In this document: in pieces, positions 891-6,573 of the stretch
How the letters are laid out: each line of letters opens with the position of its first letter
Position numbering within the stretch: position 1 is the stretch's first letter
From: Halogranum gelatinilyticum
GTDB lineage: Archaea > Halobacteriota > Halobacteria > Halobacteriales > Haloferacaceae
Length of the DNA stretch: 64,000 bases
Reading direction: 5' to 3'
NCBI RefSeq assembly: GCF_900103715.1
Contig: NZ_FNHL01000001.1
Span: 539,295-603,294, forward strand
Notes under the pieces: generated by a model
Database searches by the model: none
The model's input: the letters and a program-made list of their open reading frames with translations, nothing else
What the model was told of the DNA's origin: nothing
Translations under genes and position numbers: made by a program

Positions 891-2210
891 ATGTCGAACG
901 AAGAGACGGACGAAGACGACCAGGCCTACGCCGGGACGGCGGAGGGGCAGGGTCCCGTCAAGATCACAGAAGAGATCGACCGCCACTTGGCGAACAAACG
1001 CGAGGAGCTGTTCGAGGAGTTCGAGATCCGCGACAAGTTCCCGTCGGCCGTCCTCCAAGAGGCCGAAGAGCGCACCGAGGGCGTCCACCAGGAGATTCAG
1101 GACGAACTGGACCACCGCCAGGACCTTCGGGACCTGACGACGTGGACGACCGACCCCGTCGACGCCCAGGACTTCGACGACGCCATCAGCATCGCCGAAG
1201 AGGAGGAACATTACCGGCTGTGGGTCCACATCGCCGACGTGACCCACTACGTCCACCCCGGCTCGGAGATGTGGGCCGAGGCGGTCCAGCGCGGCAACAC
1301 GGTCTATCTCCCCGGCTACACTATCCATATGCTGCCGCCCGCGCTCGCCGAGACGGTCTGTTCTCTCGTCCCCAACGAGGACCGACTGGCGCACACGGTG
1401 GAGATGGCGATCAAGAAGGACACCCTCTCGTTCGAGAACATCGAGATCTACAAGTCCGTCATCCACTCGAACGAACGGCTCACCTACACGCAGTGTGAGA
1501 ACCGGCTCGACGACCCCGACGCCCCGCTGCACGAGGAGAACAGCCTCGTCTACGACCTCGCCGACCAGCTCCACGAACAGCGCAAGGAGGACGGCTCGCT
1601 CGTGCTCAACCCGAGCCGCGACCGCGCACACACCATCATCGAGGAGTGTATGCTGAAGGCGAACAAGGCCGTCACGCACGAGCTGATGTGGAACCGCGGC
1701 GTCGAGGCGATGTACCGCGTCCACCCCCAGCCGACGCCCGACCAGTGGGACAAAGCCCTCAAAGAGATCGCCGAACTCGACGGCATCAACATGTCCGGGG
1801 CGGCGTGGGACGACCCCCGGAAGGCGGTCAACCAAGCCCTCGAAAGCGCGAGCGGCAAGAACCTCAACAAGGTCCAGCGGTCGGTGCTGCGGGTGATGCC
1901 CCGAGCGAAGTACATGAACGACCCCTTCGGCGGCCACTACGCGCTCAACTTCGACATCTACGGCCACTTCACCTCGCCCATCCGGCGGCTGTCGGACCTC
2001 ATCAACCACTGGATCGTCCACGAGAACGACGTGCCGGAGGATCTCATCGCGCTCTGTGACCGCGCCTCCGACAAGCAGAAGGACGCCGAGACGGCCGAAC
2101 GGCTCTACAAGCAGTTCATGGAGGAGATCGGTCTCAACCCCTACGACGTCAACAACCGCGGCGTCGAAGTCGTCGACGACGACGAGATCGACGACGACAT
2201 CGAATACTGA
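891..2210 (+). CDS. RNB-domain 3'-5' exoribonuclease, RNase R family
   Basis: A 439-residue protein with the RNB catalytic core. The acidic metal-binding cluster lies at about residues 88-97 (DPVDAQDFDD), and the family signature YGHFTSPIRRLSDL sits near residues 356-369. RNB enzymes bind Mg2+ and degrade single-stranded RNA processively from the 3' end. It is shorter than bacterial RNase R because the N-terminal cold-shock and C-terminal S1 domains are missing, which is usual for the haloarchaeal form. The C-terminus is a run of Asp/Glu. RNA turnover or processing is a family-based inference; haloarchaea lack the exosome, so this enzyme may carry much of the 3'-5' decay. Confidence 0.9.
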   Translation: MSNEETDEDDQAYAGTAEGQGPVKITEEIDRHLANKREELFEEFEIRDKFPSAVLQEAEERTEGVHQEIQDELDHRQDLRDLTTWTTDPVDAQDFDDAISIAEEEEHYRLWVHIADVTHYVHPGSEMWAEAVQRGNTVYLPGYTIHMLPPALAETVCSLVPNEDRLAHTVEMAIKKDTLSFENIEIYKSVIHSNERLTYTQCENRLDDPDAPLHEENSLVYDLADQLHEQRKEDGSLVLNPSRDRAHTIIEECMLKANKAVTHELMWNRGVEAMYRVHPQPTPDQWDKALKEIAELDGINMSGAAWDDPRKAVNQALESASGKNLNKVQRSVLRVMPRAKYMNDPFGGHYALNFDIYGHFTSPIRRLSDLINHWIVHENDVPEDLIALCDRASDKQKDAETAERLYKQFMEEIGLNPYDVNNRGVEVVDDDEIDDDIEY

Positions 2211-2307
2211 ACGGAGTCCGTCGGGGCTGCCCCGGCGTCTCTCGGTCACTCAAAGCCCTCTTTGTGTCTACAGAAGGCGTTTACCCCGTTCGCCCGCAGA
2301 GAGAGCT

Positions 2308-3660
2308 ATGTCCCCCGACAGACGCGACTTTCTCGCCCTCTCGACCGCGCTGGCCACCAGCGGTCTCCTCGGTGGCTGTCTCGGCTCACCCCTCGGCAAC
2401 GACACGGTCCCAGTCGACACCGTCGAGAGCGACAGCACACCGGTCAGGCCCGCCGACGTCGACGCCGACACCCTCGAGACGCTCGTCGCCGACGCCACCG
2501 ACTTCGCGTTCGATCTCCACGGGTCGCTCGTCGACGCGGACCCGAACACCAACCGGTTCATCTCGCCCTACAGCGTCTCCGTCGCGCTGGCGATGACCTA
2601 CGCCGGCGCACGCGGCGAGACCCGCGAGCAGATGGGTCAGACGCTCCGCTTCTCGCTGCCACGAGAAGAACTACACCCGGCGTTCCACACGCTTCGAGGA
2701 CGTGTGAACGGGAGTGACGACGCAGCGGACGACGGCTCGGACACTGACGACGACGAGCCTCGTCCCTTCAGGCTGGCCGGTGCCAACGCGCTCTGGGGGC
2801 AGGCGGACTATCCGTGGCGTGACCCGTTCCTCGCGACGCTCGAAGGGAACTACGGAGCGGGACTGCACGCCGTCGACTTCGTGTCGGAACCCGAGGGTGC
2901 TCGTCAGACCATCAACGGCTGGGTCGCCGACCGGACCGAGGAGAAGATTCCGGAGCTCTTGCCCGAGGGGTCGATTCACGACATGACGCGGCTCGTGCTC
3001 ACCAACGCCATCTACTTCAAAGCGAACTGGCAGCACGAGTTCGAGAAGGAGAAGACCGAACCACGCGAGTTCACCGCACTCGGCGGGTCGACTGCCGAGG
3101 TGCCGACGATGGAGGTGACCGAAGATTTCCAGTACGCGAAGACCGATGGCCACCAACTCGTCGAACTCCCCTACGTCGGCCACGAGGTGAGCATGGTCGT
3201 CGTGCTCCCGAAGGAGGGGACGTTCGAGGAGTTCGAGGGGAGCCTCGACGCCGAACGGCTGTCGACCCTCCTTGACAAACTGGACGAACGCGAGGGGACG
3301 CTCCGGTTGCCGAAGTTCAGTTTCTCGTCGGCGATGAGCCTGAAGCAGACGCTGTCGGACCTCGGGATGCCCGTCGCCTTCGACCCGAACGCCGCGGACT
3401 TCTCGGGCATGGCCGACGCCGAGGAGCCACTGTTCATCGGCGACGTGATTCACGAAGCCTTCGTCGGCGTCGACGAGAAGGGGACGGAAGCTGCGGCAGC
3501 GACGGCGGTGACGGTGGAGACGACGTCCGCGGAAGTGGACCCACCCGAACCGTTCGAGATGACCGTCGACCGGCCGTTCCTCTTCGCCATTCGCCACCGG
3601 GAGACAGATGCGATTCTGTTCCTCGGCCGGGTCGTCGACGCCGCCGCGGCAGCGGAATAA
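2308..3660 (+). CDS. Serpin, Tat-exported lipoprotein
   Basis: A 450-residue serine-protease inhibitor. It starts with a twin-arginine signal (RRDFLAL, Arg5-Arg6) and a lipobox with Cys24, so it should be exported folded and lipid-anchored outside. The serpin fold follows, with TNAIYFKANW and the hinge of the reactive-centre loop EKGTEAAAATAV. That hinge matches inhibitory serpins (small residues at P12-P9). Counting from the hinge, P1-P1' falls at Thr-Ser in VETTSAEV, pointing to an elastase- or subtilisin-like target rather than trypsin (inference). The ATG at 2308 is chosen because the signal peptide begins there; the open frame continues upstream without meaning. An Asp-rich insertion lies after the first third. 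Confidence 0.92.
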   Translation: MSPDRRDFLALSTALATSGLLGGCLGSPLGNDTVPVDTVESDSTPVRPADVDADTLETLVADATDFAFDLHGSLVDADPNTNRFISPYSVSVALAMTYAGARGETREQMGQTLRFSLPREELHPAFHTLRGRVNGSDDAADDGSDTDDDEPRPFRLAGANALWGQADYPWRDPFLATLEGNYGAGLHAVDFVSEPEGARQTINGWVADRTEEKIPELLPEGSIHDMTRLVLTNAIYFKANWQHEFEKEKTEPREFTALGGSTAEVPTMEVTEDFQYAKTDGHQLVELPYVGHEVSMVVVLPKEGTFEEFEGSLDAERLSTLLDKLDEREGTLRLPKFSFSSAMSLKQTLSDLGMPVAFDPNAADFSGMADAEEPLFIGDVIHEAFVGVDEKGTEAAAATAVTVETTSAEVDPPEPFEMTVDRPFLFAIRHRETDAILFLGRVVDAAAAAE

Positions 3661-3707
3661 TCGCCGCCCGGCGTAGCTTTTTCTCGGCCGCGTGGGTTGA
3701 GCCGACC

Positions 3708-4178
3708 ATGCATCCCAGTGCCGAGCAGTTCGTCGCCGACGCCCGCGCAAACTACGACTTCGAGCCGACCGTCGAGGAGTTCCCCGAGGGGACGAAGACC
3801 GCCGCCGACGCGGCCGAGGCCGTCGGCTGCGACGTCGCCCAGATCGCCAGCAGTATCGTCCTCGTCGCCGACAGCGAGGTGGTAGTGTCGGTCACCTCGG
3901 GCGCGAACCGCGTCTCGATGGCGAAGGTGGCCGAGCTTGTCGGGGCCGAGTCGGCGCGGATGGCCGAGGCCGACGAGGTGAAGCGGGCGACCGGCTGGTC
4001 TATCGGCGGCGTTCCGCCGATCTGTCACGCGACGTCGGTGCCGGTGTTCGTCGACGAGACGCTCTTGGAGTTCGAGACGGTGTGGGCCGCGGCGGGGACG
4101 CCGACGGCGGTGTTTCGGGTCGAGTCCGAGGAACTTGTTGAGTTGAGTGGCGGGGAGGTCGCGGACGTGGCGGAGTAG
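3708..4178 (+). CDS. YbaK/EbsC-family aminoacyl-tRNA deacylase
   Basis: A 156-residue single-domain protein of the YbaK/ProX family, which hydrolyses wrongly charged tRNA (for example Cys- or Ala-tRNAPro) in trans. Family features visible are the N-terminal TAADAAEAVG helix, the strand SIVLVADSEVVVSVTSGANRVS, and the GGVPPI loop at about residues 101-106. The family's usual catalytic lysine after the SI strand (often KS) is not obvious here, since the protein reads SSIVLV. Substrate cannot be told from sequence. It follows the serpin gene by 47 bp on the same strand but probably has its own promoter. Confidence 0.85.
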   Translation: MHPSAEQFVADARANYDFEPTVEEFPEGTKTAADAAEAVGCDVAQIASSIVLVADSEVVVSVTSGANRVSMAKVAELVGAESARMAEADEVKRATGWSIGGVPPICHATSVPVFVDETLLEFETVWAAAGTPTAVFRVESEELVELSGGEVADVAE

Positions 4179-4222
4179 ACCCGCTCCGCAGTGCCGCTCG
4201 ACGTCAGCGCGGCCACAGTCTT

Positions 4223-4471
4223 ATGAATCTGTCTGGTAATTGGACCGATATGCTGAGCGAACTTCACGCGGATACCTCGGGAGCAACGTCCGTCGTCGGA
4301 ACTGTTCTGATGATCGCACTCGTCGCGATACTCGGCGCGGTCATCCTGACGGCGGCCGGTCTGCTGGTCTCCGGCCGAGTCAACCTCGCCGAACAACTGA
4401 CCGACCAAATCCTCAGCTTTGCGGGACCCACCTGGTCTGTAGTCGGTTCGGTGGTTCTGGAAGTCGGATAA
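4223..4471 (+). CDS. Short type IV pilin-like protein
   Basis: An 82-residue protein with a charged N-terminal leader and then the H-domain typical of archaeal type IV pilins (DUF1628 / Pilin_N): GATSVVGTVLMIALVAILGA at about residues 19-38. Such proteins are cut by a PibD-type prepilin peptidase just before the H-domain and assembled into adhesive filaments. The mature part after the hydrophobic helix is only about 40 residues, whereas haloarchaeal pilins usually exceed 120. It may be a minor pilin, or a pilin that lost its C-terminal part, since the AT-rich island starts directly after its stop. Two other ATGs lie in frame downstream; the first is used. Confidence 0.7.
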   Translation: MNLSGNWTDMLSELHADTSGATSVVGTVLMIALVAILGAVILTAAGLLVSGRVNLAEQLTDQILSFAGPTWSVVGSVVLEVG

Positions 4472-4508
4472 TCTCTCTCGCTCGTGGTTCTGGGCCTCGT
4501 TTCCAACG

Positions 4509-4517
4509 AGTGGACTC
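4509..4517. repeat. Weak att-like match to the tRNA-Ala 3' edge
   Basis: The word agtggactc here is identical to 6500-6508, which spans the 3' end (discriminator side) of tRNA-Ala(CGC), in the same orientation. It lies at the other border of the AT-rich island, just after the pilin gene. Nine bases is short enough to occur by chance, so this is only a candidate attachment-site remnant. Confidence 0.2.
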
Positions 4518-4653
4518 TATGGATAGGTGAGACCCGACGAACAGCCATCGTGGACACGAATCGAAAGTAGTCCAGTTCCTTCTACAATTTGAGGGCTCAA
4601 TTCTGCGTGGTTCTGTCCGACTTTAGCGTGTTCTCGGCCTCCTCAAAATAGAA

Positions 4654-6036
4654 CTATTGCTGTCCTCTATGGTCTGCTTCCTCCCACATATTGTCGAATA
4701 GTTCAATAGCTGAGCCAACAGCCTCCGAATCTCGTGTGAACACACCTGCGTTAAATTCTTCATGAAGCTGTTCCCGAGTGAGATCTGCCGACGATACAAG
4801 CAATGCTTCGTTGTCTGAGATTACAAACCGCGTGTGTATCAAGTCATCTTCCTTCACATTACCCTCACTTCGTCTGTTTAGCTCGTTCATTGCAGCCACT
4901 TTGAGTTTTGAACGTGATCCAGACGTCTTTCCGGTATTGGTGAGAATTCGCACTTCAAGCGAATCTTCATGTATCTTATCGATGATTTCTTCATATAACA
5001 TATCAATTCTCAGTGTAGAAATTCGGAGAATCTCGTCAGTTTCTGAGATCAATTTTCCGGCATAGTTCAGAATATCCGTGTTCCTTTCTTCATGCCGAGT
5101 GGAAGGGACCGTGGTGACAAACTTCGGTTTTGATTTATCATATTCACGTGTCTTTTTCTCCAGCATGGCCTCGACCTCCATCGCGGGTATCTTTGGACCA
5201 TATCCGGCGTAAATTAGTGCAGTCGTCACTACCCCTGTTAGATGCAAATTGGTAGTACGGTGACTGCCGTTGGACTCTGATATTTCTTCAGGTGCTTTAC
5301 CCCAGTATCCCTCATCAGATTGCTCGCTGATGAGCTTTTCAGCTAATCGGTTTGTTGTCTCAGAATAGTCTCCTGGTGAGCTAACTAATGCCATCAGGTA
5401 GTAACCCAGCGTTGGATAGTATATGTCACTCTTCTCATCGAGGAGCTGATTAATAGATTCTGCAATCCAGTCTGTGATATCTTCCAACTCTTGGCGATAC
5501 GTATCAGGAGATACTTCAGAAACCGCGATTACTCCGATAGCAGCGTTAGCAAGCTCATGGCTATAAATCCGCTCCCGGTCCCTGGGGAACATGGATACGA
5601 AGTGTTTGATAGCCTTTCTGACCGAGTTCGCAGAACTATCATGTTGCACCAAAAACCAGATTGGTCCAGATGGATTATAGTCCCCCAGCGAAAAGTCACC
5701 CTTCGACATTTGGACTGATTTGAGGCGTTGGCTAAAGTAATTCAGATTGGGCGATTGATCTATATCCGGACTCCAAGCATCCTCCAGATACTTGTTTGCT
5801 AATTTCGCCAGAAATGGGAGTCGGTCTGAAAATTCAGAAGGAAGAATATCGAGACGTTCGGACACATGGTATCTTTCCAAGAATTTCTTGGCCTCATCTG
5901 AGCCAACTCGGTCAAGAGCGTAAAACGCGGCCGAATTGTATACCGAATAGTCTTCCTCAGAATTGATATGGTCTTCCAAATATCGTAGAGCTTTCTCAAC
6001 CTCTGAAGAGCATGTGCAGAGAAGGTCTTCGTCCAT
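4654..6036 (-). CDS. Alpha-toroid / PLD-like domain protein of unknown function
   Basis: About 460 residues in AT-rich DNA. The first 300 or so residues are helical repeats with a QSDEGYWG motif like the QW motif of alpha/alpha-toroid proteins (squalene/prenyl cyclase or terpenoid-cyclase fold), but I see no DxDD or DxDTA-type catalytic motif. The last 150 residues look like one phospholipase-D half: a beta strand with EVRILTN, then HTRFVISD, which fits HxK(x)4D except that Lys is replaced by Arg, then LLVSSADLT. Start chosen at 6036 because a TATA-like atatag lies about 29 bp upstream; an ATG at 6078 would add 14 residues. It is the only intact gene of the island. Function not known; nucleic-acid binding or defence is speculation. 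Confidence 0.7.
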   Translation of the reverse strand: MDEDLLCTCSSEVEKALRYLEDHINSEEDYSVYNSAAFYALDRVGSDEAKKFLERYHVSERLDILPSEFSDRLPFLAKLANKYLEDAWSPDIDQSPNLNYFSQRLKSVQMSKGDFSLGDYNPSGPIWFLVQHDSSANSVRKAIKHFVSMFPRDRERIYSHELANAAIGVIAVSEVSPDTYRQELEDITDWIAESINQLLDEKSDIYYPTLGYYLMALVSSPGDYSETTNRLAEKLISEQSDEGYWGKAPEEISESNGSHRTTNLHLTGVVTTALIYAGYGPKIPAMEVEAMLEKKTREYDKSKPKFVTTVPSTRHEERNTDILNYAGKLISETDEILRISTLRIDMLYEEIIDKIHEDSLEVRILTNTGKTSGSRSKLKVAAMNELNRRSEGNVKEDDLIHTRFVISDNEALLVSSADLTREQLHEEFNAGVFTRDSEAVGSAIELFDNMWEEADHRGQQ

Positions 6037-6058
6037 GTGAGATATGAATACGTTATTC

Positions 6059-6071
6059 CGACATATAGCTG
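6059..6071 (-). promoter_or_regulatory. Predicted TATA box of the toroid/PLD gene
   Basis: On the minus strand this reads agctatatgtcgg, centred 29 bp before the ATG at 6036, the spacing of a leaderless archaeal promoter. This supports the shorter start of the toroid/PLD gene. Confidence 0.35.
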
Positions 6072-6090
6072 ATGACAAGACAATAGAGTA

Positions 6091-6372
6091 TCAAAACACC
6101 TCGTCAATCGGCACCTTGTGCTGCTTCCCTTTCTCGTGACCCGACTCGTGCCAGCCACCGCGTTCGTTCACTAACCGAAGCACCGTCGAGGGACGTATCC
6201 GCCGCATATCGACCGGCTGCCGATCCCTGTCGAACAGCACGAACACGATTCACGCCGTCCCGCGAGCGTCGGCGGCGACGAGCGGTCGAAGTTCCTCAAA
6301 GAGCCGCAACCAGCCGGCGGTCGGCACGAACTTTGAGGGGTTCCAGCCACCACTGCTCAGGGAATGATGCAA
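6091..6372 (-). pseudogene. Degenerate reading frame beside tRNA-Ala
   Basis: On the minus strand one frame reads with protein-like composition for about 90 codons (for example GGWNPSKFVPTAGWLRLFEE, then after a stop VNERGGWHESGHEKGKQHK and PIDEVF), but it is interrupted by an in-frame TGA after ARGTA and has no clear start. The GC content and codon use are haloarchaeal, unlike the PLD gene next door. I do not recognise the family. It is best read as the decayed 3' part of a gene, perhaps brought in or cut by integration at the tRNA. Confidence 0.35.
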
Positions 6373-6501
6373 GCACGCTCACCGCGAGCGAAGCGAGCGG
6401 GCCGACGACTGAACGGAGCGAAGCGAAGTGAAGGAGGAGTGCTTTTGGCCGAGCTTTTGCCGAGGCTCACCGAAGGTGAGCCGCAGCGCAAAAGGTCGTA
6501 G

Positions 6502-6573
6502 TGGACTCGTCGGGATTTGAACCCGAGGCCTCTTCCTTGCGAAGGAAGCGATCTACCACTGATCTACGAGCCC
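6502..6573 (-). tRNA. tRNA-Ala(CGC)
   Basis: A 72-nt cloverleaf on the minus strand. The acceptor stem is GGGCTCG paired with CGAGTCC and includes the G3-U70 pair that marks alanine tRNA, followed by discriminator A. The anticodon arm is CTTCC-TTCGCAA-GGAAG, giving anticodon CGC (codon GCG). The T arm is TCGGG-TTCAAAT-CCCGA. No intron and no encoded CCA. It lies 104 bp downstream of rpsJ on the same strand, and its 3' end borders the accessory island. Confidence 0.97.

Follow-up and report, generated by a model that had tools for sequence, protein, structure and literature searches.

A haloarchaeal protein joining an alpha-toroid to a PLD half with an invariant H-R-D-N site: a possible stand-alone conflict protein

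What kind of protein is encoded at 4654-6036 of the window, and can a PLD half that carries arginine in place of the usual lysine still act on a phosphodiester? The window is the whole 64,000-nucleotide stretch of Halogranum gelatinilyticum DNA (contig NZ_FNHL01000001.1) that was analysed, and the features discussed here are collected in Table 1. According to the original prediction, made from the letters of the sequence, the protein consists of an alpha-toroid fused to one PLD half with HxR instead of HxK, lies in an island, may bind nucleic acid rather than cut it and may belong to an undescribed type. The translation contains the three motifs on which this was based (QSDEGYWG, HTRFVISD and LLVSSADLT). 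The ORF is a true gene rather than a chance reading frame, because 12 further full-length homologs and three fragments occur across archaea and in one bacterium. A search of the host's own genome revealed no second copy. The G+C content of the stretch holding the gene is 0.43-0.48, compared with mostly 0.63-0.70 around it.

Table 1. Position of the toroid-PLD gene, its domains and site residues, and the surrounding insertion in the window.
Feature	Position	Strand	Basis or remark
Toroid-PLD gene	4654..6036	-	460 aa, ATG at 6036, stop at 4654; 12 further full-length homologs
N-terminal (alpha/alpha)6 toroid, residues 7-281	5194..6018	-	AlphaFold2 model and fold search
C-terminal PLD half, residues 301-458, Nuc-like	4663..5136	-	PLDc_2 match, AlphaFold2 model and fold search
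HTRFVISD, residues 401-408: H401, R403 (Lys in other PLDs), D408	4813..4836	-	H, R and D kept by every member
SSAD, residues 415-418 (other PLDs mostly GSxN); D418 invariant	4783..4794	-	Alignments
N429, invariant, aligned with the catalytic Glu of Nuc-type PLDs	4750..4752	-	Alignments
2.2-kb insertion, between ybaK-like gene and tRNA-Ala side	4179..6381		Low G+C content over the gene; same-genus genome G423 has 22 bp
tRNA-Ala(cgc); insertion on its 3' side	6501..6573	-	tRNA scan

An AlphaFold2 model of the window protein, built from a 13-row alignment (pLDDT 81.7, pTM 0.64), was compared with known structures in a fold search, and both predicted domains, rather than neither, were recovered. 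The N-terminal domain matches drimenyl diphosphate synthase (Z 18.9) and squalene-hopene cyclase 1sqc (Z 18.5, 3.4 A, 248 aa), as well as (alpha/alpha)6 toroids other than terpene cyclases. The C-terminal domain matches Nuc 1byr (Z 19.0, 2.1 A over 142 aa), and residues 329-451 give a Pfam match to PLDc_2 (1.8e-9). The same two domains reappear in the model of a distant relative, L053 (pLDDT 85.6; Z up to 20.6 for the toroid and 18.5 for Nuc), whose sequence scores above the Pfam cut-offs of both SQHop_cyclase_C (2.1e-11) and PLDc_2. The Foldseek matches include the non-catalytic PLD-like folds FAM83 and TrmBL2.

In Nuc, the catalytic quartet H-K-N-E is formed by H94, K96, N111 and E122. In the toroid-PLD family, taken here as 16 members (the window copy, 12 full-length relatives and three fragments), the quartet is replaced without exception by H-R-D-N: the equivalents of H401, R403, D408, D418 and N429 are invariant in 16/16 members, including that of Chloroflexota, and the site Ser is likewise invariant. 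HxR is thus a trait of the whole family and not a local mutation. The exchanged positions pair in alignments with well-known PLDs: H-x-K with H-x-R (MitoPLD and PLD1), the Asn of GSxN with D418 (MitoPLD, NucT and PLD1), and the Glu eleven residues past this Asn with N429 (MitoPLD and NucT). The other PLD proteins from the same searches have HxK in every case in which the motif was extracted, GSAN or SSAN with two exceptions as read from the motif (SIN in L011 and GSQN in L068), and Glu at +11 in the GSAN/SSAN proteins wherever readable. All 14 invariant columns of a 15-row alignment lie in the PLD half, with the four quartet columns among them; by simple counting, the chance of four given columns (of about 158) all falling among the 14 is about 4e-5. 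Set against the pattern of the catalytic HKD class, HxK(x)4D...GSxN...E, all members keep H and D and show K, N and E exchanged for R, D and N, respectively.

Mutants of PLD1 and PLD2 with the K-to-R exchange serve as catalytically inactive enzymes (PMC3648575), and for this reason catalysis is not to be assumed. The joint exchange of the quartet residues nevertheless argues against random decay. With K-to-R accompanied in every member by N-to-D and E-to-N, and with His, Asp and Ser unchanged throughout, remodelling of a phosphodiester site that still functions seems a better description than simple loss.

Among family members, the toroid has neither an invariant acidic residue nor a shared DxDD motif, the latter being absent from the window protein (P0001) and present in scattered single cases in other members; a cyclase role is therefore unlikely. 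The QSDEGYWG motif to which the original prediction drew attention does match Q-x-x-D-G-x-W-like repeats kept in the methanogen and Chloroflexota relatives, but it is not conserved in close relatives. In the pairs examined, sequence divergence of the toroid far outpaces that of the PLD half, with toroid/PLD identities (in percent) of 60/84, 54/68 and 39/63 in closest pairs and of 23/68 for L003 (=L108)/L050, in which the toroid looks to have been replaced or to have changed very fast. A variable sensor attached to a constant effector would be expected to show such a lag. In the dN/dS analysis of the family, synonymous sites were saturated in nearly all pairs.

The homologs, found in searches of prokaryote genomes, are 24-48% identical where measured. 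In the scan of genome contigs, relatives were detected with an alignment as the query, whereas a single-protein query gave none. Their hosts are haloarchaea of several families, a Methanosarcinales MAG, Methanoperedens and further genomes of its class, and one Anaerolineales (Chloroflexota) bacterium. The family is rare and patchy: with the window copy counted, there are 7 full-length copies in an order-level sample of 293 genomes and 5 in a family-level sample of 170. One copy, that of Haladaptatus caseinilyticus, is plasmid-borne, and it is the only full-length relative from the plasmid searches. The Methanoperedens copy (L054 3428-6301) is split into an N-terminal part (~3653-4066) and a C-terminal part (from 5510), with a transposase-like ORF (4307-5509) between them. 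A viral origin of the gene was rejected, as four IMG/VR scans, a phage collection and PHROGs contained no relatives. Literature searches yielded no description of a toroid joined to a PLD or of a PLD of the HxR type, and none of the curated families found describes it. The joint change of the four site residues, kept from haloarchaea to a bacterium, points to an undescribed family, as had been supposed.

The island location was borne out by comparison with a same-genus genome (G423), in which 22 bp, from the ybaK-like stop codon to the tRNA-Ala flank, replace the insertion. The gene is a lone one, probably imported from elsewhere. The copy at L109 starts 124 bp past tRNA-Thr, and a tRNA lies within about 5 kb at four of the 12 neighbourhood sites (window, L052, L108 and L109; L062 left out), compared with one of the 12 control regions; a universal tRNA insertion site was rejected, as only these four sites have one nearby. 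The insertion also holds a type IV pilin-like ORF of 82 aa, perhaps truncated (4223-4471, + strand; Pilin_N 0.0012, below the cut-off). Directly upstream of the toroid-PLD gene there is a high-GC ORF piece of 52 codons (6091-6249, - strand; IVFVLFDRDRQPVDMRRIRPST...VPIDEVF), which gives no Pfam match and looks like a gene remnant. A sequence of about 80 bp beside the tRNA (6424-6499) recurs, whole or in part and with ~82-92% identity, elsewhere in the genome and in relatives. Read by eye, 2056-3660 (+ strand; protein part from about 2302) encodes a protein that resembles serpins and carries a Tat-type signal sequence (MSPDRRDFLALSTALATSGLLGGC...).

We also compared the neighbourhoods of the copies (12 sites only, annotated with a home-made gene caller) with twelve other regions from seven of the same genomes. 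Restriction-type genes are found near 4 of the 12 sites: L048 has a type IIG enzyme and L055 a type II cytosine methylase, L050 is flanked by Hma-like methylase and ATPase, and near L108 there are Mrr and Schlafen/AlbA_2 proteins. Within 7 kb of the window copy there is no recognised defence gene. The 111 PADLOC families around the copies, against 33 in the control regions (mostly DEAD-box helicases), are a count of models and not of genes; several of the models overlap, and one gene can match dozens. Small winged-HTH genes (HVO_A0261_N-like) lie near 5/10 haloarchaeal sites (L049 7323-7604, L062 11899-12120, L048 6404-6781, L050 10687-11025 and L051 5383-5727) and in 0/12 control regions, as found with a search model built from the same five; they were rejected as a partner on account of this origin of the model and the fact that most are not adjacent. 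A conserved operon or partner gene was also rejected, as the neighbours differ at every site compared. Toxin-antitoxin-like genes were seen by eye near several copies. The neighbourhood evidence for a role in defence or element maintenance is suggestive only.

Among known proteins, Nuc and NucT resemble the C-terminal half in fold (Z about 19, 2.1 A), in having a single motif and in the motif His and Asp, and the toroid-PLD family differs from them by the exchanges of Lys for Arg, of the catalytic Asn for Asp and of Glu for Asn, and by the added N-terminal toroid. Of the named relatives, DrmC proteins of DISARM score best with the PLD half (NF038319, 1.8e-10; PADLOC DrmC, 1.3e-7); the window protein differs from them by HxR, the toroid and the absence of adjoining DISARM genes; inspection by eye revealed no drmA, drmB or methyltransferase beside the window copy. 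Membership in DISARM as DrmC was rejected on the basis of this neighbourhood and of the NF038319 score (40.8 bits, with a cut-off of 133). The only MZB-domain (DUF1998-type) match in the window genome is on another contig.

The explanation we prefer, tentatively and at somewhat short of an even chance, is a stand-alone, horizontally moving conflict-type protein, probably antiviral or anti-element. It is supported by the fold of both halves, repeated in L053; by the H-R-D-N site, invariant even in Chloroflexota, as against HxK in other PLDs; by the lag of toroid behind PLD identity; by the lone gene in an insertion next to a tRNA, the L109 copy by tRNA-Thr and the plasmid copy; and by the genes of restriction or Hma type close to the copies at L048, L050, L055 and L108, together with the absence of viral relatives from the collections searched. 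Against it stand the inactivity of K-to-R mutants of PLD1 and PLD2, the matches to FAM83 and TrmBL2, the lack of a conserved partner and of defence genes close to the window copy, and the PADLOC matches in the control regions. Two PLD halves would pair into one active site, as in Nuc, and this site would bind a nucleic-acid phosphodiester, with Arg replacing Lys; the bound phosphodiester would be either cut by an altered phosphohistidine chemistry or merely held. The variable toroid, devoid of the cyclase catalytic motif, may recognise an invader-derived molecule and gate the PLD site. If the protein is of the conflict type, an active site with altered chemistry is slightly more probable than binding only. 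The defence role is what we infer from these observations. That the proteins form a family of single-protein archaeal immune effectors, with a swappable toroid sensor and a PLD half catalysing or trapping phosphodiesters, in which K-to-R is offset by the N/E exchange, seems unlikely to us at present.

The chief rival, which we consider rather doubtful, is a catalytically dead PLD half that dimerises and serves only to bind DNA or a ligand, as in TrmB/TrmBL2, in a protein that regulates or coats DNA. It fits the classical dead character of the K-to-R change, the PLD-like domain shared with these proteins, the TrmBL2 match in Foldseek and the match of L051 to Regulator_TrmB (1e-4, just under its cut-off). 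The toroid-PLD family, however, keeps its His-Arg-Asp-Asn site, and the N-terminal winged HTH of the TrmB type is missing from the window protein, residues 7-281 being the toroid. Moreover, the site residues (His, Arg, Asp, Ser, Asp and Asn) are the same in every archaeal and bacterial member, and most of the columns that never vary in the PLD half are grouped around them, which a pure scaffold would not need. An improbable alternative is a plasmid- or island-maintenance or toxin-like gene without a specific immune role; the plasmid and island locations and the toxin-antitoxin-like neighbours agree with this, but there is no conserved partner antitoxin, the gene is mostly alone, and it persists in a minimal 2.2-kb insertion without a replication gene. 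It is very improbable that the protein is a membrane or lipid enzyme, with the toroid holding an isoprenoid chain and the PLD half acting on the head groups of archaeal ether phospholipids. The toroid is indeed closest to squalene-hopene cyclase and the class II terpene cyclases, with the SQHop_cyclase_C match in L053 and QxxDGxW-like repeats in distant relatives, and PLD phospholipases have the same fold as the other half. Yet the family has a single toroid, no shared DxDD, no conserved acidic or other catalytic residue in it and a PLD fusion, the single-motif PLD halves of closest fold (Nuc and NucT) are nucleases, and the Chloroflexota member presumably has ester lipids.

The toroid-PLD family offers a natural experiment in PLD chemistry: the classical 'dead' Lys-to-Arg change, together with two partner changes, has been kept in hosts as distant as haloarchaea and Chloroflexota. 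Work on a single protein with a handful of point mutants could reveal whether PLD catalysis accepts another set of residues, and, if the protein is protective against viruses, the small set of archaeal defence proteins known so far would gain a toroid sensor.
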